A stretch of 64,000 nt of DNA from Boseongicola sp. (GTDB lineage: Bacteria > Pseudomonadota > Alphaproteobacteria > Rhodobacterales > Rhodobacteraceae): assembly GCA_028824715.1 (NCBI GenBank), contig JAPPCV010000174.1, positions 1 through 64,000 on the forward strand, given 5' to 3'. This document shows positions 8,934 to 29,890 of the stretch, in pieces. Both the position numbers and the translations under genes were made by a program. The notes below the pieces were generated by a model that saw only the letters and a program-made list of their open reading frames with translations, made no database searches and was not told where the DNA came from. The first letter of the stretch is position 1; each line of letters opens with the position of its first letter.

Positions 8934-9812
8934 ATGGCAACCCAGCACTCCCGATCCGCAGCCCGGCTGATGATGGCCCCAGCGGTGGTCCTTCTTCTCG
9001 GCTGGATGCTCGTGCCGCTGACGATGACGCTTTACTTCTCCTTCAAGAAATACCTGCCGATGCGTGGCGACTCGTTGGCAAACGGCCTGGATTGGGTGGG
9101 GTTCGCAAATTACGCACGATTCGTGACGTCGAGCTCGTTCTGGCCAAGTGTCTACGCGACCCTCGTCATCGTCGGCGGTGTCCTGGTGATCACGGTGATC
9201 CTCGGAATCTTCCTCGCTCTCCTGCTCGATCAGCCGATGTGGGGCCAGGGGGTTGTCCGCATCCTGGTCATCGCTCCCTTCTTCGTCATGCCGACCGTGT
9301 CGGGTCTCGTGTGGAAGAACATGTTCATGGATCCGGTGAACGGCTTCTTTGCCCATGTCTGGCGAAGCGTCGGGGCCGAACCGATCGAGTGGCTCTCTCA
9401 GGCATCGCTGCCCTCGCTCATTCTCATCGTGTCGTGGCAATGGCTGCCCTTCGCGACGCTGATTCTGCTCACGGCGTTTCAGTCGCTCGACCAGGAGCAG
9501 CTCGAAGCCGCCGAGATGGACGGCGCACGCTGGCCGCAGCGCTTTGTCTTCATCGTTCTGCCGCACCTGAGCCGCGCGATCACCGTCGTGCTCCTGATCC
9601 AGACGATCTTCCTCTTGTCGATCTTCGCAGAGATTTTCGTTACCACCCAGGGCTCGTTCGGCACCAAGACACTGACCTACCTGATCTACCAGCGCGTGCT
9701 GGAAAGCCAGAACGTGGGCCTCGGCTCCGCCGGTGGTGTCTACGCCATCATCCTTGCCAACATCGTTGCGATCTTCCTGATGCGCATCGTCGGCAAGAAC
9801 CTGGACGCGTGA
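8934..9812 (+). CDS. smoF: sugar (polyol) ABC transporter permease
   Basis: [40 protein letters not shown]-type loop [23 protein letters not shown]. Confidence 0.92.
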
Positions 9813-18813: not shown

Positions 18814-20085
18814 TCAGGACGTGCCTGCCGCAGCCCGCGCAACGCCGATCGCGGCTTCCACGTTCTTCGCACATGCGGGCAGAATGCCGAGCGTCCTGGC
18901 CCGGATTTCAGTGAATGCAGTGTTTCTTGCACCCCCGCCTGCGGAGTAGATTGCGTCCGGGAACCCGCCGCCTCGGGCCTCGATTTCGCGATAGCATTGC
19001 GCTTCGATCCGCGCGATGCCTTCCAGCAGGCCCTGCAGGAACACCGCGTCATCAGCTGGTCTAGGCGCAACGCGGGGCGCAAGGTCGGGGTCGTTGACCG
19101 GAAACCGTTCTCCGGCACGGATCAACGGATAGTAGTCAAGGCCGGAGGGTGCCATTGGGTCAATGCTGGCGCTCAGTCGGGCAATGGCCTCGGGCGAAAA
19201 GAAGTGTGCCAGAACCGCGCCGCCGGAATTGGACGCTCCGCCGACCAGCCAGGCATCGCCGAGTCGATGCGAATAAAGTCCGATTTCAGGATCGTCGATT
19301 CGCTCGCGACCGAGCATCTTGACTGCCAGGGTGGAGCCGAGGGAGGTCACGGCCGTTCCGATCTTGAGGGGAGCCGCCGCAAGGAATGCCGCGATGCTGT
19401 CGGTGGTGCCTGCGCAGACAACGGCACTTGGTGCCAGTCCAAGCCTGGCGGCAACATCGGGTGTGACCTCCGAGACCGGTGTTCCTACCGCATGGGCGCA
19501 CGGCAGGAGGGCAGTGTCCATGACCTTGCCGATCCAGTCAGGCCAAATTCCTGTCGCCGGGTCCAGACCGGTCTTGAGAGAGTTGTTGTGATCGGAATGT
19601 CCGCCGCAGCCCGTCAGTTTGGCAGCAACAAAATCGGCCTGGTGGAGAAGGTGGCGGGCGCGTCCGCCCGCATCTTCCACAACGAGATGCATGGCGCGCG
19701 CGAGCGCGGAGCCCGGACCTCGGGCAATGTGCGACGGCGGGGCGTGCATGTCTATCCGTGCCGCCTCGGAGTCAAAGCTGCCGGAATCGTACATCAGCGC
19801 CCGACCGACAGGGCGCAGCCTCGCATCGCACAGCACCATGCTGCCCGAAGTCCCGTCGACGGCGATCCTCGAAACCTCCGTCCCGCTGCGGCCGGAGTCC
19901 TTCAGTGCCGAGACCTGCCGCGACACGCACGTCTTTACCGCTCGCCACCACTCTTCCGCGTCAATGCGGTTCGGGTCCTGGCGCAGATGTGTCGTGCGTG
20001 CCATCGACAGGACTTCCCCGCGTTCGTCCACGACGGCGGTTCGGATGCCGCTTGTGCCAACGTCGATGCCAAGCGCCAGGCTCAT
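18814..20085 (-). CDS. FGGY-family carbohydrate kinase (D-ribulokinase / SePSK-like)
   Basis: MSLALGIDVGTSGIRTAVVDERGEVL...GTTDSIAAFLAAAPLKIGTAVTSLGSTLAVKML...YSAGGGARNTAFTEIRA. Confidence 0.88.
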   Translation of the reverse strand: MSLALGIDVGTSGIRTAVVDERGEVLSMARTTHLRQDPNRIDAEEWWRAVKTCVSRQVSALKDSGRSGTEVSRIAVDGTSGSMVLCDARLRPVGRALMYDSGSFDSEAARIDMHAPPSHIARGPGSALARAMHLVVEDAGGRARHLLHQADFVAAKLTGCGGHSDHNNSLKTGLDPATGIWPDWIGKVMDTALLPCAHAVGTPVSEVTPDVAARLGLAPSAVVCAGTTDSIAAFLAAAPLKIGTAVTSLGSTLAVKMLGRERIDDPEIGLYSHRLGDAWLVGGASNSGGAVLAHFFSPEAIARLSASIDPMAPSGLDYYPLIRAGERFPVNDPDLAPRVAPRPADDAVFLQGLLEGIARIEAQCYREIEARGGGFPDAIYSAGGGARNTAFTEIRARTLGILPACAKNVEAAIGVARAAAGTS

Positions 20086-21059
20086 CGGTGCGAGGTCAGT
20101 GCCCGGCGGTACTTTTCGGCATCCCAGTTGAGGAGTTCTGCCTCTGCCTCTGGACCGATGGGACTTGCGGACCACTCCTGCGGAAGTCGGCCGAGCACGT
20201 CCGAAAGGCATCGCAGCATGGCTCGCTGGCTTGCCGACGCGTCGGTGCGCAGCGCGATGCCGACGCCCTCGGAAAGGATGGCCGGCCACGAGCCGTCCCG
20301 GCCGCTGGCAGGAAGCCCACCCGGTCCGAGAAAGACGACGTGGTCGGGATAATACGATCCGGACATCGCCAATGTGCAGGTGCGCGGTTGCTGTGCCATC
20401 CACCCCTCGCTCGCCCATTCCATGCCGGATTCCGGACTTGCTTCCGGGAGAGTGTACGGTGTCCCGCGAAGCGGCATGGCAAGCCTTTCCTCCACTTCGC
20501 CGAGCAGTTCGGAGACTTCCGACGCCGAACCGCCGCAGCAGATCAGTCCGTGGTTCTGCAAGACGACCACGGCCGTATCCGCCGTCACCCTTGACATGAT
20601 CGAATTGGTCAGCGGCAGGCCAGGCTTGGCATAGGGCACCATCGCGAAGGGCAGGCCGCCAAGCTTGTCCCGTGCGGCGGCACGGCCTTCGGGGCTGATT
20701 GCATGCGTCAGGGTCGCGATCGAATGTGTATGCGCTACGACCGGATGATCGAATGCGGCGTGAAACGTCGTCTCTATCGACGGTCGGAGCTTGGTGTGCG
20801 GGTCGAGAACGGCTGCTTGGCAACTTCCGTCTCCGGTGGACCCTTGCGCTTCTTCCAGAGCCGCCGCGCGATTTACGGCCACGAAGATGTCCTGCCTTTC
20901 CGCAAGCGCCAGTTCCGTGCCCGAGGCCTTGATCCACATGACATCGCCGTCCTTCACGGAGGTGTTCCCTCCAGGGCCTTGGACCTGAAGCGGGTCCCTG
21001 CCAAGACGGGCGGAAAGAGCGAGGAACTCTGGATCAGGAGGTGCGAGGCATGCGCTCAT
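20082..21059 (-). CDS. class II aldolase/adducin family protein (RhaD-like)
   Basis: MSACLAPPDPEFLALSARLGRDPLQVQGPGGNTSVKDGDVMWIKASGTEL...VVAHTHSIATLTHAI...NHGLICCGG; overlaps both neighbours by 4 bp. Confidence 0.87.
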   Translation of the reverse strand: MSACLAPPDPEFLALSARLGRDPLQVQGPGGNTSVKDGDVMWIKASGTELALAERQDIFVAVNRAAALEEAQGSTGDGSCQAAVLDPHTKLRPSIETTFHAAFDHPVVAHTHSIATLTHAISPEGRAAARDKLGGLPFAMVPYAKPGLPLTNSIMSRVTADTAVVVLQNHGLICCGGSASEVSELLGEVEERLAMPLRGTPYTLPEASPESGMEWASEGWMAQQPRTCTLAMSGSYYPDHVVFLGPGGLPASGRDGSWPAILSEGVGIALRTDASASQRAMLRCLSDVLGRLPQEWSASPIGPEAEAELLNWDAEKYRRALTSHR

Positions 21060-21895
21060 GCAAGCAGCTCCATTCGGTATGTGGGTGCCGGCACGCCCTC
21101 CACAGCGCAGAGTTCGGCCAGGGTGTCCGCCGCATCGCCAGCCGTGAAGTTCTCGCGCAGGAGACCGCCTTGCACGAACACGCTGTCCCAGCCTGCACCA
21201 TGTGCCCCTGCTATGTCGTGCTCCAGGCTGTCTCCGACCATCAACAGGCGCGATCCCCCTAGCGAACGCTCCACCGCCTCGAACACGTGACGATGAGGCT
21301 TGCCATAGAAGACCACGTTGCCTCCATTCTCCATATGCATGTGAGCAAGTGCGCCGGGAGCCAGCGTGTTGCGGTTCCCTGAACGCGGGCTGGCGCGATC
21401 GGGATTCGAGCAATAGACCGTAAGGTTCGCCGTCATCGCGTGATCCAGAACATCCTGCCAGTCCGCCGCAGCGGCGTTTTCGGGCAGCCCCATGATCAGG
21501 ATCGCCTCGGCCGTCTCCGGCACGTCGCAGATCGTGACATCCAGCCCTCCGGCCCATGAATTCGCGTCTCCGTGCGCCCGCTCGACGAAACAGTAGCTAC
21601 GTTCCGGCACGCGGCCGGACCGTACGTCCTGCCAAAGCGCCTCGCCGCTTGTCATTATCTGGTCAAACAGGCCAGGGGCGAACCCCATGGCCGCGATCCG
21701 TGCCTCGTTTTCCGACGCCCGCTTGCCCGAGTTGGACAGGACCGCAAGCCGCGCGCCAGCGCCCTGCAGCGCTTCAAGCGCCGTCACCGCGCCGGGATAC
21801 GGTTCGCTGCCATCGTGCAGCACTCCCCATTGATCCAGAATGATGGCGTCGTATCCCTTTGCCACCTCCTGGATGCTCTCGATGGCACGCGTCAT
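21056..21895 (-). CDS. HAD-superfamily hydrolase, TIGR01459-type class IIA
   Basis: YDAIILDQWGVLHDGSEPYPGAVTALEALQGAGARLAVLSNSGKR...LMVGDSLEHDIAGAHGAGWDSVFVQGGL. Confidence 0.9.
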   Translation of the reverse strand: MTRAIESIQEVAKGYDAIILDQWGVLHDGSEPYPGAVTALEALQGAGARLAVLSNSGKRASENEARIAAMGFAPGLFDQIMTSGEALWQDVRSGRVPERSYCFVERAHGDANSWAGGLDVTICDVPETAEAILIMGLPENAAAADWQDVLDHAMTANLTVYCSNPDRASPRSGNRNTLAPGALAHMHMENGGNVVFYGKPHRHVFEAVERSLGGSRLLMVGDSLEHDIAGAHGAGWDSVFVQGGLLRENFTAGDAADTLAELCAVEGVPAPTYRMELLA

Positions 21896-21901
21896 CCGGG
21901 G

Positions 21902-22834
21902 TCAGTCTTCCATGTCTTCAGGTCTGGCGAGGTTCGAGATGTATGCATCGACGTCTTCGGGCGCCATCGCGGGGGCCTCCTTTCCTGCTGCGCCGGCCGG
22001 CATGTCGCCGAAATAGAACCGGTAGCCCGGAATCGCCTGGCGCCGCCGGCGAATCGGCATGCCTTGATAGGGAAAGACGTCCGAGCGCGCGTTCGCCGCA
22101 TGGTCATGGCACGGCAGGACGTAGTCCGCGCGCTTGTCCAGCTCCTCGACCGACTTCCAGCCGTCATAGGCATTGACGAACCTTGCGGGCACCCAGTAGC
22201 GCCACATTTCGGCCGGGTTCGGCTCCAGGTTGCGCTCCTCGAAGATCGCGTCGCCGCAGACCACGATGTCGCCGGCACTTGTTGCAACGCTCACGGCCAT
22301 ATGTCCCACTGAGTGTCCCGGCGTCGGAAACATCGTGATGCCGGGCAGCACCTCGCACTCGCTGCCCACGGCCTCGAAGACGCATCCTGCATAGGCCGGC
22401 TCGATGCCAAGAATGCCGCATTCGTAGGTGCGGTAGTAGAGCGGCAGCGGATTGTACGCCATCTCGATCTCGGCCTTCGGAGCGATGTAGCGTGCGTTCC
22501 TGAACTCCTTCATGTTCTGTACGTGATCCCAGTGAAGATGGGTGAAGATGATCACGTCGATCTGGTCTGGATGCAGGCCGAGTTCCTGTTCCAGATGTTC
22601 GTGGACCTGCAGGCAGCCGCGTTTCTCGCAGTTGTGGTGATACTTGCTGGCGCGTTCCTGGTCCGGCAGCCCGGTGTCGATCAGGATCTTGTGCTCGCCG
22701 GTGTCGACGAAGTGGCAGTAGACCGGCTGCCACTTCTTCCTTCCTGCGGGCCCCTTCCAGAAAATGTAGGTTCCAAGGTCCCCATGAAGCCAGCCTGTGT
22801 TTATGGGATGGATTCTCGTTTCTGCAACGCTCAT
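21902..22834 (-). CDS. MBL-fold lactonase family protein (AHL-lactonase-like)
   Basis: KILIDTGLPDQ...VIIFTHLHWDHVQNMKEF...MFPTPGHSVGHMAVSV...GDAIFEERN. Confidence 0.85.
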   Translation of the reverse strand: MSVAETRIHPINTGWLHGDLGTYIFWKGPAGRKKWQPVYCHFVDTGEHKILIDTGLPDQERASKYHHNCEKRGCLQVHEHLEQELGLHPDQIDVIIFTHLHWDHVQNMKEFRNARYIAPKAEIEMAYNPLPLYYRTYECGILGIEPAYAGCVFEAVGSECEVLPGITMFPTPGHSVGHMAVSVATSAGDIVVCGDAIFEERNLEPNPAEMWRYWVPARFVNAYDGWKSVEELDKRADYVLPCHDHAANARSDVFPYQGMPIRRRRQAIPGYRFYFGDMPAGAAGKEAPAMAPEDVDAYISNLARPEDMED

Positions 22835-22862
22835 GGGGCCGCTCCGTGTTCAGTGATTCAGT

Positions 22863-22876
22863 TTTTGTGCACAAAA
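22863..22876. promoter_or_regulatory. putative GntR operator TTTTGTGCACAAAA
   Basis: Perfect 14-bp palindrome just upstream of the 22834 start. Confidence 0.65.
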
Positions 22877-22925
22877 GTATGAAAAAGGACACATTTGCAA
22901 GACCATTCTCCTTGACCGCTTGGCG

Positions 22926-23591
22926 TCAGTTTGCCCTGAGCGTTTCAAGGAAGCTCGCGGTCATGTGGCTGCGCATGCTTCGGGACGCAGTAGCCGAATC
23001 CTCGGAGAAAATGTCATTGATCAATTCCGCATGGCTCCGGGCAGAAGCAAGCAAGTCGTCGCGGGTCTCGAACTTCTTTGCCCGGAAGGGGCCGGTGCGC
23101 CGACGGAACTCGGATGCGATCTCGGCGATGTAGGGGTTGCCCGTGGCACGGTAGATGGCCAGGTGAAACGATTCGTTCGCGCGCAGGTATTGCGACCGGT
23201 CACCGATTTCCGCAGCGGCCACGCAGGCAACCTGTGCTGCCTCAATTTCCGATCTCGACAGGAGCGTGAGGCGCTGCGAGGCGATCCTCGCGCATGCGGC
23301 CTCGATTTCGTGCATGGCCTCGAATATCTGGCTGAGTTCTTCACGGCTGTATTCCGCGACGAAGACACCGCGTCTCTCGCCCTGGACAAGAATGCCCTGC
23401 GCCGTCAGGCGGGACAGCGCCTCGCGCACCGGGGTTCGCGAAGCCCCGAATCGCCTTGCGAGACCGACCTCGTCCAGCCTTTGGCCCGGCCTCAGGTCGC
23501 CCGTTCCGATCTCATCCAAGAGTGCCCGTTCGATGCGCTGTGCCATCGAGTGTCTCTGGCCGTCGGCGCGGTTGGTGGCGCTTTTCAACAT
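22926..23591 (-). CDS. GntR-family (FCD/FadR subfamily) transcriptional regulator
   Basis: GDLRPGQRLDEVGLARRFGASRTPVREALSRLTAQGILVQGERRGVFVAEYSREEL. Confidence 0.92.
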   Translation of the reverse strand: MLKSATNRADGQRHSMAQRIERALLDEIGTGDLRPGQRLDEVGLARRFGASRTPVREALSRLTAQGILVQGERRGVFVAEYSREELSQIFEAMHEIEAACARIASQRLTLLSRSEIEAAQVACVAAAEIGDRSQYLRANESFHLAIYRATGNPYIAEIASEFRRRTGPFRAKKFETRDDLLASARSHAELINDIFSEDSATASRSMRSHMTASFLETLRAN

Positions 23592-23667
23592 GCCTTGCCA
23601 AGTCCTCCCTACCCGGATTCGGTACACTCATCGAAGTGGAAATGCAAACTTGCATATTTTCTTTTCT

Positions 23668-23681
23668 TTTTGTATACAAAA
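23668..23681. promoter_or_regulatory. putative GntR operator TTTTGTATACAAAA
   Basis: Perfect 14-bp palindrome in the divergent GntR/ABC intergenic region; second palindrome ATGCAA-AC-TTGCAT at 23642..23655. Confidence 0.68.
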
Positions 23682-23710
23682 TTGCGACACTTCGGAGAAT
23701 CGGGGATTCG

Positions 23711-24796
<1,086 letters not shown>

Positions 24797-24833: not shown

Positions 24834-26162
24834 ATGCTGAAATACACGAAACGGATCACACTGGGTGCGGTCTCCGCGCTGGCGCTGGCGTCTGCCGCGT
24901 CTGCCGGACCGTATGACGAGTATCAGGGCGAGACCCTGATCGTGAACTTTCCCGCCCATCCACATTTTGACGCGGTGATGAAGATCCTGCCGGAATTCAC
25001 GGCAGAGACCGGGATAGAGGTCGAAGTGGACCAGCTGCCTTACCTGAAGATGCGCGAGCGGCAGACGCTTGAGCTGGCGCAGGACGAAGGCGAGTACGAT
25101 CTCATTGCCTACGTCGTCTTTTCGAAGGCGGACTATGTCTATGCGGACCAGCTCGAGAACTTGGCGCGGTACTTCATGAACCCGAAGCTTGCGGATCCGG
25201 CTTATGACGCAGACGACCTGATCGACGGCTACGTCTACAACATCGGCTTTGCCGGCGGGAACAAGGGCTATCTTGAAGGAAAGACGGGCTCGCTGTTCGG
25301 CATCCCCTACGGCTCCGAGACCTCGATCCTTGGCTATCGCACGGACATCTTTGACAAGCACGGCCTTTCGGTGCCCGAGACCTATGGCGAGCTGCTCGAC
25401 GTTGCCTGCCGGATTCCGGATCTAGAGCCGGGCATGGGCGGCCTCTCTTCGCGCGCAGCATCCGGTCACCATGCCAGCCATGCGTTCCTGCTGCATCTCG
25501 CTCCCCTGGGCGGTCGCATCTTCGACGACCAGTGGAACCCGATCGTGAACAATGCGGCGGGCGTCGAGGCTGCCAACGCGCTGAAGACCATCGTGGACTG
25601 CGGTCCGGAGGGCGCGGCATCCTTCGGCTTCGGCGAAGCCCTCGGCTCGTTCCTGAACGGCGATACGGCGATGTTCCTTGACACAACGGTCGTGGCCGGA
25701 CAGATCAACGACCCCTCCAAGTCGAAGGTTGTCGGCAAGGTCGGCTGGGCGTTGCATCCCATGGGCGTTCGCCGCGGCTCGCAGACCGGCGGGTTCGGCA
25801 TCGGAATCCCGAGCAACGCCGAGAACAAGGAGGCCGCGTTCCTCCTGATGCAGTGGCTGACGTCGAAGAAGGGTGACAAGCTCGTGGCGCTGGCCGGCGG
25901 CAATCCATCGCGCTTCTCGACCCATGCGGATCAGGACGTGAACGCCAAGTTCCCGCATATGGCCACCTTCGGCGAAGCCCTGAAGCACGCCGATCCGGAC
26001 TGGCGGCCGATCATCCCCGTCTGGGGCAAGATCAATGCGGATCTCGGCACGACGCTGTCCAAGGTCCTGACCGAAGACCTCGACGTGCAGGAGGCGCTTG
26101 ACGGCGTCGCGGAACGCACCCGGGCCGTCATGGAGGAAGCCGGCTACTACACCTGGCAGTAG
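24834..26162 (+). CDS. ABC transporter extracellular substrate-binding protein (carbohydrate type)
   Basis: MLKYTKRITLGAVSALALASAASAGPYDEYQGETLIVNFPAHPHFDAVMKILPEFTAETGIEVEVDQLPY; signal peptide. Confidence 0.92.
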   Translation: MLKYTKRITLGAVSALALASAASAGPYDEYQGETLIVNFPAHPHFDAVMKILPEFTAETGIEVEVDQLPYLKMRERQTLELAQDEGEYDLIAYVVFSKADYVYADQLENLARYFMNPKLADPAYDADDLIDGYVYNIGFAGGNKGYLEGKTGSLFGIPYGSETSILGYRTDIFDKHGLSVPETYGELLDVACRIPDLEPGMGGLSSRAASGHHASHAFLLHLAPLGGRIFDDQWNPIVNNAAGVEAANALKTIVDCGPEGAASFGFGEALGSFLNGDTAMFLDTTVVAGQINDPSKSKVVGKVGWALHPMGVRRGSQTGGFGIGIPSNAENKEAAFLLMQWLTSKKGDKLVALAGGNPSRFSTHADQDVNAKFPHMATFGEALKHADPDWRPIIPVWGKINADLGTTLSKVLTEDLDVQEALDGVAERTRAVMEEAGYYTWQ

Positions 26163-26228: not shown

Positions 26229-27143
26229 GTGACTGCGCAAACATTCAATCGCATGACGCCATACCTGTTTCTGGCGCCTGCAGCGATCACCATGGCCATC
26301 GCTCTGCTCTACCCGTTGGGATACATGGTATATGGCTCGTTCCGGGACTGGGATCCGAGCCAGAACATCTCGGAGACGGACTTCGTCGGGTTGAAGAACT
26401 ACATCACGCTGTTCTTTGATCCAGCGTTCCGGGAAAGCCTGTCCGTCACGCTGATCTTCGCGTTCACCGTCGTCGTTGCCGAAATGGTGATCGGCGTCGG
26501 GCTGGCGCTCTTGCTCGACCGCAACATTCGCGGAATCTCCGTTCTTCGCACGCTCTTCATCCTGCCCATGATGATCGCGCCAGTCGTTGTCGGCCTGATG
26601 TGGCGCTACATGTATCACCCGACGGTGGGTACGTTCAACAAGACGCTGAAATCGCTTGGTTTCGACGGAGTCGACTGGCTGGGCCAGCACGCACTTCTGA
26701 GCGTCATCATCGCGGACATCTGGCAATGGACACCGTTCATACTGATTCTCGCGCTGGCGGCCCTGCAATCGTTGCCGGCTTCCGCCATCGAGGCGGCGCG
26801 CATTGATGGCGCGACGGCCTGGCAGCAGATATGGCACATCAAGCTGCCGCTGATGATGCCGGTCCTGGTCGTGACGGCGCTGCTTCGCCTGATAGACGCA
26901 TTCAAGGTGCTGGAAGTCATCCTGGTGATGACCGAGGGCGGCCCAGGCCTGTCCACCGAGATCGTGGCACTGCGGATATCGCGCACCGCAACGGAATTCC
27001 GCGAGCTTGGCACGGCGGCGGCCATGTCAAACTACCTGCTGATCCTGCTGCTGATTCTCACGTTGGCGATGTTTGCGATTGGCCGGCTCCAGGATGCCCG
27101 TACGGCGCGCCTTGCCCGCCAGGTTCAGGAGGAGGAAGGCTGA
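26229..27143 (+). CDS. sugar ABC transporter permease
   Basis: GTG start; MTAQTFNRMTPYLFLAPAAITMAIALLYPLGYMVYGSF...EAARIDGATAWQQIWHIKLPLMMPV. Confidence 0.92.
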   Translation: MTAQTFNRMTPYLFLAPAAITMAIALLYPLGYMVYGSFRDWDPSQNISETDFVGLKNYITLFFDPAFRESLSVTLIFAFTVVVAEMVIGVGLALLLDRNIRGISVLRTLFILPMMIAPVVVGLMWRYMYHPTVGTFNKTLKSLGFDGVDWLGQHALLSVIIADIWQWTPFILILALAALQSLPASAIEAARIDGATAWQQIWHIKLPLMMPVLVVTALLRLIDAFKVLEVILVMTEGGPGLSTEIVALRISRTATEFRELGTAAAMSNYLLILLLILTLAMFAIGRLQDARTARLARQVQEEEG

Positions 27144-28072
27144 TGGACCACGAGCGTCAGAATCCAGCCTTCTACGCACTTCTTGCCGTGCTGATCTTCA
27201 TGTCCGTCGGCCCGGTCCTGCTGATGTTCGTGAATTCGTTCAAGCTGGATGTCGACATCATTGGCGGCACAACGGGCTTGATCTTTCTCCCCACGATTCA
27301 GAATTACGAGACCGCGCTCTGTGACATCCTTTGGTATGAGCTGGACCACCTCGATTTCTGCTCCCTCAAGTTTGGCGGCGCCCTGATCAACTCCTTGATC
27401 ATTGCCCTGATTTCCACTGGGCTGACCCTGGTGATCGGATGCATGGCTGCCTATGCGTTGGTCCGGTTCCGCTTCTTCGGTCGGGACACGGTGTCGCTGA
27501 CCACGCTCACGGTCCGGATGGTGCCGCCTGCGGTGCTGCTGGTTCCTGTCTTCGGCTTGTGGAACAACGAGTTCTGCATCGGCAAGTCGACGCTGGTGGG
27601 AGGCTGGATCCGGGACATGTTTGGCGGTCGAGGCGACGTCTGCCTTGCCGGAACCCACTCCGGCATCATCATCATCTACGTGGCAATGAACCTGCCCTTC
27701 GTGATCTGGATCCTGCAGAGCTTCATCGTTCAGGTTCCGCGTTCGCTGGAAGAGGCCGCACGGGTGGACGGCGCCGGTCCGTTCCAGGTCTTTTTCAAGA
27801 TCGTCCTGCCGCTGATCCAGCCCGGTCTGGCCGCGGCGGCCATCTTCACGTTCCGTATCGCCTGGAACGAATACCTGTTGGCGTCCGCCCTGTCAGACCG
27901 GAACACGAAGACCGTGCCGATCCTGATCGTGAACAACATGAGCGAGTTCAACGTCGAGTGGGGAGTGATCATGGCGACCGGCATGCTGCTTGCCATCCCG
28001 CCGATCATCTTCACGCTCTTTGCGTCGCGACAGATCATTACAGGGATGACCGCAGGCGCAGTGAAGGGCTGA
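27143..28072 (+). CDS. carbohydrate ABC transporter permease with two Cys-containing periplasmic-loop insertions
   Basis: EEAARVDGAGPFQVFFKIVLPLIQPG EAA loop; insertions around CDILWYELDHLDFC and CIGKSTLVGGWIRDMFGGRGDVC. Confidence 0.9.
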   Translation: MDHERQNPAFYALLAVLIFMSVGPVLLMFVNSFKLDVDIIGGTTGLIFLPTIQNYETALCDILWYELDHLDFCSLKFGGALINSLIIALISTGLTLVIGCMAAYALVRFRFFGRDTVSLTTLTVRMVPPAVLLVPVFGLWNNEFCIGKSTLVGGWIRDMFGGRGDVCLAGTHSGIIIIYVAMNLPFVIWILQSFIVQVPRSLEEAARVDGAGPFQVFFKIVLPLIQPGLAAAAIFTFRIAWNEYLLASALSDRNTKTVPILIVNNMSEFNVEWGVIMATGMLLAIPPIIFTLFASRQIITGMTAGAVKG

Positions 28073-28076
28073 ATGC

Positions 28077-29222
28077 ATGGACGAGGCGCACGTCCTGCTC
28101 CTGGCCACGCTCGACACGAAAGCCGAGGAAGCGGAATTCCTGTCCCGACATCTGTCCGGGCACGGCATCCCATCGTGCACCATTGATCTGTCGCTCGGGG
28201 CGGACGGCGCAATTCTCGGCGGTTCGGAAAAGCTCGAGGCCATGGAGGCCGCTGCATCGCGAGCGCTCGAAACCGTCACCGAGGCGCTGGCCGGCGACGT
28301 GCGAGTAGTCCTCGGCCTTGGCGGCGGCACCGGCGGGGAAGTCGCGCTTCGAGTCATGCGTGCACTTCCCGTCACGTTCCCGAAGGTGCTTGTGACCACC
28401 TTGCCTTTCGACCCGCGCATCGTCGTGGCAGACTCGTCGGTCATCCTGGTGCCGACCCTTGTGGACATCTGTGGGCTGAACGCCACGCTGCGCGAGGTTC
28501 TGGAAAACACCGCGGCATTGACAGCAGGCCTCTGCAGAACGCGTCGGGTGGCAGGCGCATGCGTTGCAAGCCCGTCCATTGGCATCACTGCACTTGGTGC
28601 GACCGAGACGGCGGTCACTTCGCTCGTGTCGGCACTTGCTGACAGGAATCAGGAGAGCACGGTATTCCATGCCAACGGTTACGGTGGGGCAGCCCTTTCA
28701 CGATTCGCGGAGCGTGGCGCGCTCCGTGCCTTAGTGGACCTGACCCCGCACGAATTGACGCGCATTCACTTGGCCGGCAGCCATGTGCCGATGCCGAACC
28801 GCTTCAGCGCCGGGGCGGATCTCCCCTGGATCGTTCTGCCTGGCGGGTTGAACTTCATTGGCTTGGGTGAGGAAACGCTGCTTCCCGAGAGATATCTCGG
28901 TCGTCCGCGCTATGCGCATTCGAGCTTCTTCACCCACGTAAAGCTGCTGGAAGAGGAAATGCTTGTCGTTGCGGATGCGCTTGCCGAGAACCTCAATGCA
29001 GCCACTGGGCCCGCTGCGCTGATCGTGCCCATGGGCGGCTTTTCCCATCAGGATCGAGTTGGCGGTCTGATCGAGGATCCCGCGCTGCGGCAAGTCTTTC
29101 TTGACCGCGTCATGGAATCGCTCTGCCGGGACATCGTGGTGACTGCGCTTGACGCGCATATTTCGGCGCCGGAGACCACGCTTGCGATCATCGACACGCT
29201 GGATGACCTTGCGCCAGGCTGA
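28077..29222 (+). CDS. UPF0261 / Tm-1-like ATP-binding domain protein
   Basis: VLLLATLDTKAEEAEFLSRHLSGHGI...GLGGGTGGEVALRVMRALPVTFPKVLVTTL...VPMGGFSHQD. Confidence 0.87.
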   Translation: MDEAHVLLLATLDTKAEEAEFLSRHLSGHGIPSCTIDLSLGADGAILGGSEKLEAMEAAASRALETVTEALAGDVRVVLGLGGGTGGEVALRVMRALPVTFPKVLVTTLPFDPRIVVADSSVILVPTLVDICGLNATLREVLENTAALTAGLCRTRRVAGACVASPSIGITALGATETAVTSLVSALADRNQESTVFHANGYGGAALSRFAERGALRALVDLTPHELTRIHLAGSHVPMPNRFSAGADLPWIVLPGGLNFIGLGEETLLPERYLGRPRYAHSSFFTHVKLLEEEMLVVADALAENLNAATGPAALIVPMGGFSHQDRVGGLIEDPALRQVFLDRVMESLCRDIVVTALDAHISAPETTLAIIDTLDDLAPG

Positions 29223-29236
29223 AAGGAACCGGAATC

Positions 29237-29890
29237 TTGTCAGACATCGACGAAGAGAAAGATGCATTGATCGCCACGGCCAGGCGCTGCTTTGACCTGC
29301 GTCTTCAGACGAATGCCGGTGGCAATCTCTCGGTTCGGCTCGAGTGCCAGGATGCAATCCTCATCAAGCCGTCCGGAGTCGGGTTCAACGAGTGCAGTCG
29401 CGACAACCTGCAGGTCGTGCACATGGACGGCAGGATCGAGCCGAGTCCTCACAAGCCATCCAAGGATCTGGGATTTCACCTGGGCCTTTATCGTACGCGC
29501 GACGACATACGCGCAATCGTTCACTGCCACAGCCCGTGGGCGACGGGCTATGCAAGCGCCGGTCTGGAGATCCCATGCCTGACGGTGCAGTCGATCGAGA
29601 AGATTGGCCGCCTGCCCCTGATTCCCTTGTCATCCAAGGGCGGGCCCCAAACCGAGCACGAAATCAGTCCGGTATTCAGTGACCCAGGAATCGTGGCCGC
29701 AGTTCTGGCCAATCATGGCACGATTGGAGTCGGACGGTCGCTCATGAGCGCCCAGTACCTGGCCGAGATCATCGAGGAGACCGCGCATGTCGCGTATCTG
29801 CGCGATGTGCTCGCGGCGGTGCACGGGAGGCACGGGAATGGCCTGCCAAGGTTCGGACGGGCCAAAGACGCGGATGCTGGCGTGACCTGA
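29237..29890 (+). CDS. class II aldolase/adducin family protein
   Basis: TTG start; LQTNAGGNLSVRL...ILIKPSGVGFNEC...IVHCHSPWATGYASAG...ANHGTIGVGRSL. Confidence 0.86.
   Translation: MSDIDEEKDALIATARRCFDLRLQTNAGGNLSVRLECQDAILIKPSGVGFNECSRDNLQVVHMDGRIEPSPHKPSKDLGFHLGLYRTRDDIRAIVHCHSPWATGYASAGLEIPCLTVQSIEKIGRLPLIPLSSKGGPQTEHEISPVFSDPGIVAAVLANHGTIGVGRSLMSAQYLAEIIEETAHVAYLRDVLAAVHGRHGNGLPRFGRAKDADAGVT

Follow-up and report, generated by a model that had tools for sequence, protein, structure and literature searches.

A predicted local GntR regulon in Boseongicola with conserved GANTC sites at the promoters of both its operons

A stretch of Boseongicola DNA, 64,000 nucleotides long and hereafter called the window, carries a cluster of eleven genes around a GntR-type regulator (Table 1). 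The arm to the left of gntR encodes a lactonase-like protein, a phosphatase-like HAD hydrolase, an aldolase-fold protein and a kinase. The right arm encodes an ABC transporter, a UPF0261 protein and a second aldolase-fold protein. From the gene families we infer the import of a sugar or polyol, followed by cleavage of a phosphorylated intermediate, and the relatives of the solute-binding protein include one structure labelled sorbitol. For UPF0261 we found no explanation of its bacterial function in the literature.

Table 1. Genes and predicted regulatory features of the cluster (positions in the window)
Feature	Position	Strand	Remark
FGGY-family carbohydrate kinase	18814..20085	-	
Class II aldolase-fold protein A	20082..21059	-	
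HAD-IIA family hydrolase	21056..21895	-	TIGR01459
MBL-fold protein, lactonase-like	21902..22834	-	best solved relative 4-pyridoxolactonase
GANTC (GAATC)	22855..22859	-	directly downstream of operator D; conserved in orthologous loci
Main operator D, TTTTGTGCACAAAA	22863..22876	.	28 bp ahead of lactonase start codon
Degenerate second operator of D, AAATGTGTCCTTTT	22883..22896	-	exactly 20 bp upstream of D
CTTG upstream of operator D	22898..22901	-	conserved
gntR, GntR wHTH + FCD	22926..23591	-	VanR-group-like; Atu1419-type DNA-reading and metal-site-like residues
Degenerate second operator / -35 region of U, ACTTGCATATTTTC	23648..23661	+	exactly 20 bp upstream of U
-35-like TTGCAT, ABC promoter	23650..23655	+	conserved in orthologous loci
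Main operator U, TTTTGTATACAAAA	23668..23681	.	29 bp ahead of ABC-ATPase start; gntR start 76 bp away
-10-like TATACA, ABC promoter	23673..23678	+	17 bp past the -35; wholly within operator U
GANTC (GATTC)	23705..23709	+	6 nt ahead of ABC-ATPase ATG; conserved in orthologous loci
ABC transporter ATPase, UgpC/MalK type	23711..24796	+	
Extracellular sugar/polyol-type solute-binding protein	24834..26162	+	SBP_bac_1
ABC permease 1	26253..27143	+	
ABC permease 2, MalG type	27143..28072	+	
UPF0261 (Tm-1-like) protein	28077..29222	+	
Class II aldolase-fold protein B	29240..29890	+	fuculose-phosphate-aldolase-like

The regulator has the N-terminal GntR winged helix-turn-helix and the C-terminal FCD domain that define the FCD (FadR/VanR) GntR proteins, with matches to PF00392 (58.8 bits) and PF07729 (84.0 bits) that both exceed the curated cut-offs. 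Its best match among solved structures is McbR/YncC of E. coli (PDB 4p9f, E = 4.4e-18), another FCD GntR protein, which differs in gene context. Atu1419 of Agrobacterium fabrum (PDB 6z74, 6za0-6zab) was also matched. Atu1419 is a VanR-group FCD GntR that has been shown experimentally to be a repressor; it acts from ATGTATACAT palindromes that overlap -10 boxes, and changing the G/C pair in the palindrome abolishes binding (PMC7797058). The same source names Glu34, Arg45, Thr46 and Arg49 as its DNA contacts and Asn137, His141, His192 and His214 as its metal ligands (PMC7797058). In the GntR protein studied here the four DNA-reading residues are the same (E41, R52, T53 and R56, each present in 52/52 orthologs) and align with those of Atu1419. 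A similar Asn/His set is also present: N139, H143 and H187 occur in 52/52 orthologs and H209 in 49/52, with a spacing that fits the metal ligands of Atu1419, the alignment itself stopping short of these residues.

Two palindromes, which we call operators D and U, lie to either side of gntR. The sequence-only reading had proposed both of them as the mark of a GntR regulon spanning the two arms, and they are found exactly where it had put them. It had also placed D just ahead of the lactonase operon and U between gntR and the ABC operon. This placement stands, with the qualification that only U separates divergent genes (gntR and the ATPase gene), as gntR and the lactonase operon are co-directional and D is located inside their 91-bp gap. 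The full-genome scan that the same reading had suggested finds TTTTGTNNACAAAA nowhere else: the genome of 5.24 Mb in 181 contigs contains two matches, D and U, compared with 0.028 expected per genome from base composition under an independent-base model. The reversed control pattern has no match in the same 5.24 Mb. Relaxing the search adds little, with a single further place in the genome at up to two mismatches to TTTTGTATACAAAA (contig C13) and, at up to three mismatches, 14 forward places, fewer than the 18 of the control, which is the level of chance. A two-mismatch scan of the window alone again gives D and U and no more, where shuffling predicts 0.57 matches and arrives at two in 11 of 100 cases; the strength of the observation therefore lies in the exactness of the sites, their rarity in the whole genome and their conservation.

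To assess conservation we used 53 non-duplicate orthologous loci, one of them that of the window. Most are from Rhodobacteraceae, and they were collected by a contig scan with the GntR protein (49 loci) and from a sample of 298 genomes of the family (further loci). The sequence-only reading had named loss of the palindromes at orthologous loci as what would speak against it, and the motif is kept at both positions. The spacing is kept as well: where the lactonase gene is intact, nearly all loci have 23-29 bp from the end of operator D to its start, and in the majority of intact loci U lies 28-31 bp ahead of the ATPase start, the outliers being mainly more distant or AT-rich loci. A count of changes along the GntR tree gives none for T4-G5-T6 and C10, columns in the core of operator D, and most columns of the untranslated region that follows have 10-20. 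All 11 genes occur together in 24 of the 28 loci that are long enough on both sides. In loci that have no ABC genes (L019, L034, L038, L042 and L043; L numbers are our labels for loci) the upstream site is kept in front of UPF0261-aldolase, 29-59 bp from the UPF0261 start. Near UPF0261 and aldolase B, TctA/TctB transporter genes are found in L034 and L038 and sulfatases in L038, L042 and L043, and these neighbours are a clue that hints at the substrate class.

Two further cases deserve mention in their own right. L012 has lost the lactonase-HAD-aldolase-kinase genes as well as UPF0261-aldolase B, yet operator D (9714-9727) is kept downstream of gntR, and a Tct transporter lies further downstream. 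One Boseongicola contig (VXSG01000080.1) has gntR twice (L006:4656-5318 and L009:9001-9663), at a distance of about 13 kb. The copies show no difference in the 300 bases that were compared and have the same two operators; either the cluster was duplicated recently or the assembly is at fault.

The exact sites follow the cluster closely. We looked for exact TTTTGTATACAAAA in 33 relatives, a set that omits 12 other genomes, most of the nearest ones among them. Fourteen of the 33 have it, at 20 places in all, every one of them at the cluster and with counts that match genome by genome. In the 298-genome sample, with orthologs taken at 58% identity or above, the exact site is present in 6 of 15 genomes with an ortholog, where it always adjoins that ortholog, versus 5 of 283 without one (Fisher p = 2e-6). 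The signature of a local regulon is that its operators recur at the target promoters of orthologous loci and nowhere else, and this is the pattern seen. The proposal of a single GntR regulon over both arms is thus strongly supported, as far as comparison of sequences can take it, by the conservation of the sites, the restriction of exact sites to the cluster, the linkage of the genes and the site retained before UPF0261-aldolase where the ABC genes are missing.

Which GntR protein reads the sites is a separate question. Paralogs with 36-42% identity in other Rhodobacteraceae have near-identical operators that differ at the outer bases only, e.g. TTTTGTATACAAGA, and in two of the five ortholog-less genomes the exact site is directly upstream of a GntR paralog (37-38% identity). 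For these reasons sequence alone does not prove which protein binds, and a paralogous GntR could be the main reader of D and U, with the local GntR acting elsewhere. We consider this very improbable. In the relatives covered here that have the ortholog, exact sites are found only beside the gntR of the present cluster, and the window's own genome offers the local GntR no other site within one mismatch of TTTTGTATACAAAA. Since the paralog operators read TTTTGTATACAAGA and similar, the outer bases of the operator may carry the specificity. The paralog loci L067, L072, L074 and L076-L079 (about 40% identity) have operators TTTTGTATACAAGA or TCTTGTATACAAGA, and several of them show a similar half-site about 20 bp away.

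The position of U indicates how the regulator would act at the ABC promoter. Across the orthologous loci the alignment shows TTGyAT and TATACA 17 bp apart, with TATACA inside the operator, so that U encloses the -10 box of a predicted TTGCAT-N17-TATACA promoter and repression by occlusion is predicted. A palindrome with a GTATAC core over a -10 box is a mark of Atu1419-like members of the VanR group, and U is predicted to share this arrangement. At the lactonase promoter the core of the window's operator D, GTGCAC, makes a poor -10, and the conserved CTTG is a possible -35 element. In a scan of offsets, the best secondary match to the operator fell at exactly -20 bp for both D and U. At the second site of D the G and the C positions are retained by 41 of 43 loci; the element upstream of U coincides with the -35 box, where a half-operator and a promoter element are inseparable readings.

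That conserved -20 bp element could also aid the recruitment of RNA polymerase, and some FCD regulators activate, so GntR might activate, or both activate and repress, instead of simply repressing. The main operator over the ABC -10 box sits in a position of exclusion, and Atu1419, the closest characterised operator analogue, represses, which together make activation or dual control improbable. The likeness to Atu1419 extends from the short GTATAC-core palindrome over -10 boxes to the presence of more than one operator around the regulator's own gene and to a local catabolic regulon. The two systems differ in that Atu1419 controls a hydroxycinnamic acid pathway and has operators 190 bp and 109 bp apart, with tetramer loops seen for the 190-bp pair; a 20-bp tandem is not reported for Atu1419 in the part of its description available here.

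Both promoters also carry a GANTC site. Within 45 nt upstream of the start codon the site is present in 32/47 loci for the lactonase and 32/45 for the ATPase. Upstream of the nine other cluster genes it is found over the same length in 0-18% of loci, so GANTC is not something that the gene starts of this cluster have in common. Nor is it a general trait of such GntR operators, as the operators of the paralogs have no GANTC at a fixed position. In loci from genomes with a RAMA domain, the C-terminal domain of CcrM, GANTC occurs at the lactonase side in 26/35 and at the ATPase side in 29/35, where about one is expected each from the local density. The Poisson-binomial tails are tiny but assume independent loci; the orthologous loci are related by descent, and this expectation overstates the significance. 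Conserved GANTC in the promoter region, as is expected of CcrM-controlled promoters, is seen on both arms.

It is this relatedness, together with the location of the site at U close to the ATG and adjoining the ribosome-binding region, that lends some weight to another reading, in which GANTC is no methylation site and the signal arose as a by-product, either of shared ancestry or of selection acting on translation starts. The site at D fits this poorly, lying 3-4 nt past the operator, about 24 nt before the ATG and upstream of GGAG, with all four letters occurring as its middle base. At U, in start-anchored columns on the GntR tree, the middle base has 7 changes, more than the 2-4 of its neighbours G, A, T and C; the other columns of the untranslated region have 8-18 by the same count. 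In addition, GANTC stands at only 6-53% of dinucleotide expectation in nearly all loci from CcrM-bearing genomes. A by-product is thus an unlikely source of the signal, though a less remote one than either activation or a paralogous reader. We return to the reading of GANTC as a methylation site under selection.

A RAMA domain is present in 35 of the 46 genomes searched. The other genomes, that of the window and those with L003-L007, L049, L012, L025, L032 and L044, gave no match to it; they are metagenome-assembled genomes or drafts. Loci without RAMA have GANTC at 58-78% of dinucleotide expectation, and the absence of the domain combined with this relaxed depletion suggests that CcrM was lost in several lineages. 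The window's genome and its nearest relatives appear to lack the enzyme. In the draft assembly of the window's genome, a search of its other N6/N4 methyltransferase matches for a CcrM-like enzyme found them to be partial, weak or unlike CcrM; a full-length methyltransferase between recA and alaS was rejected as its CcrM match covers about 65 residues only. The genome does encode GcrA, and the clade of the window has mostly retained both GANTC sites. Because CcrM was apparently lost from the window's own genome, the sites there are probably relics.

There is precedent for several elements of such an arrangement. In alphaproteobacteria bound regulators can block CcrM methylation and the environment can alter it (PMC5172544), GANTC is generally enriched between genes (PMC7987155), and sites of orphan methylases that lie near regulators and are left unmethylated are known (PMC4752239), all of which makes an epigenetic input at both promoters plausible. 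The CcrM/MucR promoters of Caulobacter and Sinorhizobium likewise have promoter GANTC sites, but there the genes concern the cell cycle, virulence or phosphate and are under MucR, CtrA or PhoB (PMC5172544). In the present cluster GANTC flanks the predicted operators of a catabolic GntR, an association that we know here from sequence. The extended GcrA motif of Caulobacter, YGAKTCG/K, is not consistently present at these sites when inspected by eye, so GcrA is just one option for a factor that reads them. We found no description in the literature of GANTC at a GntR catabolic regulon, and no report on the present system in work on GntR proteins with TTGTATACAA, on the function of UPF0261 or on this set of enzymes.

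Taken as a whole, the best explanation is very probably that the palindromes are the main operators of the intervening GntR, which would repress both operons of one catabolic system, with the GANTC overlay included. GntR would thereby control uptake, UPF0261 and aldolase through the right arm and lactonase, HAD, aldolase and kinase through the left. Ligand-free GntR would occupy the main operator and exclude RNA polymerase; at the ABC promoter it would thereby cover the very -10 box. It may also touch the weaker half-site 20 bp upstream, which at two helical turns lies on the same face of the DNA and could accommodate two dimers or one tetramer. Some pathway intermediate would then free GntR from the DNA. 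In relatives with CcrM the GANTC at each promoter appears to be under selection, and the methylation state, or a factor that reads it such as GcrA, probably also tunes both promoters. The site at U is 23 bp beyond the operator and out of reach of one bound dimer. Nutrient sensing and cell-cycle methylation may in this way meet at the same promoters.

A more tentative, and on balance unlikely, extension is that GntR and CcrM compete or cooperate at these promoters in CcrM-bearing Rhodobacteraceae, with repressor occupancy setting the methylation of the flanking GANTC and methylation feeding back on induction. If true, this interplay would tie a switch in sugar catabolism to replication and provide a short-term memory.

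In kind the system is a local catabolic GntR regulon, and its unusual part is the predicted overlay of methylation sites. Beyond the earlier reading, the analysis adds the overlap of operator and promoter, the half-operators at -20 bp and the GANTC sites. An 11-gene predicted regulon is now defined for a sugar or polyol pathway that includes UPF0261, and its predicted operator can be used for testing candidate inducers. The cluster offers a compact and testable case in which selection would maintain CcrM sites at both promoters controlled by a repressor that responds to nutrients, although the genomes purge GANTC elsewhere, and the lineages that appear to have lost CcrM serve as a natural comparison.
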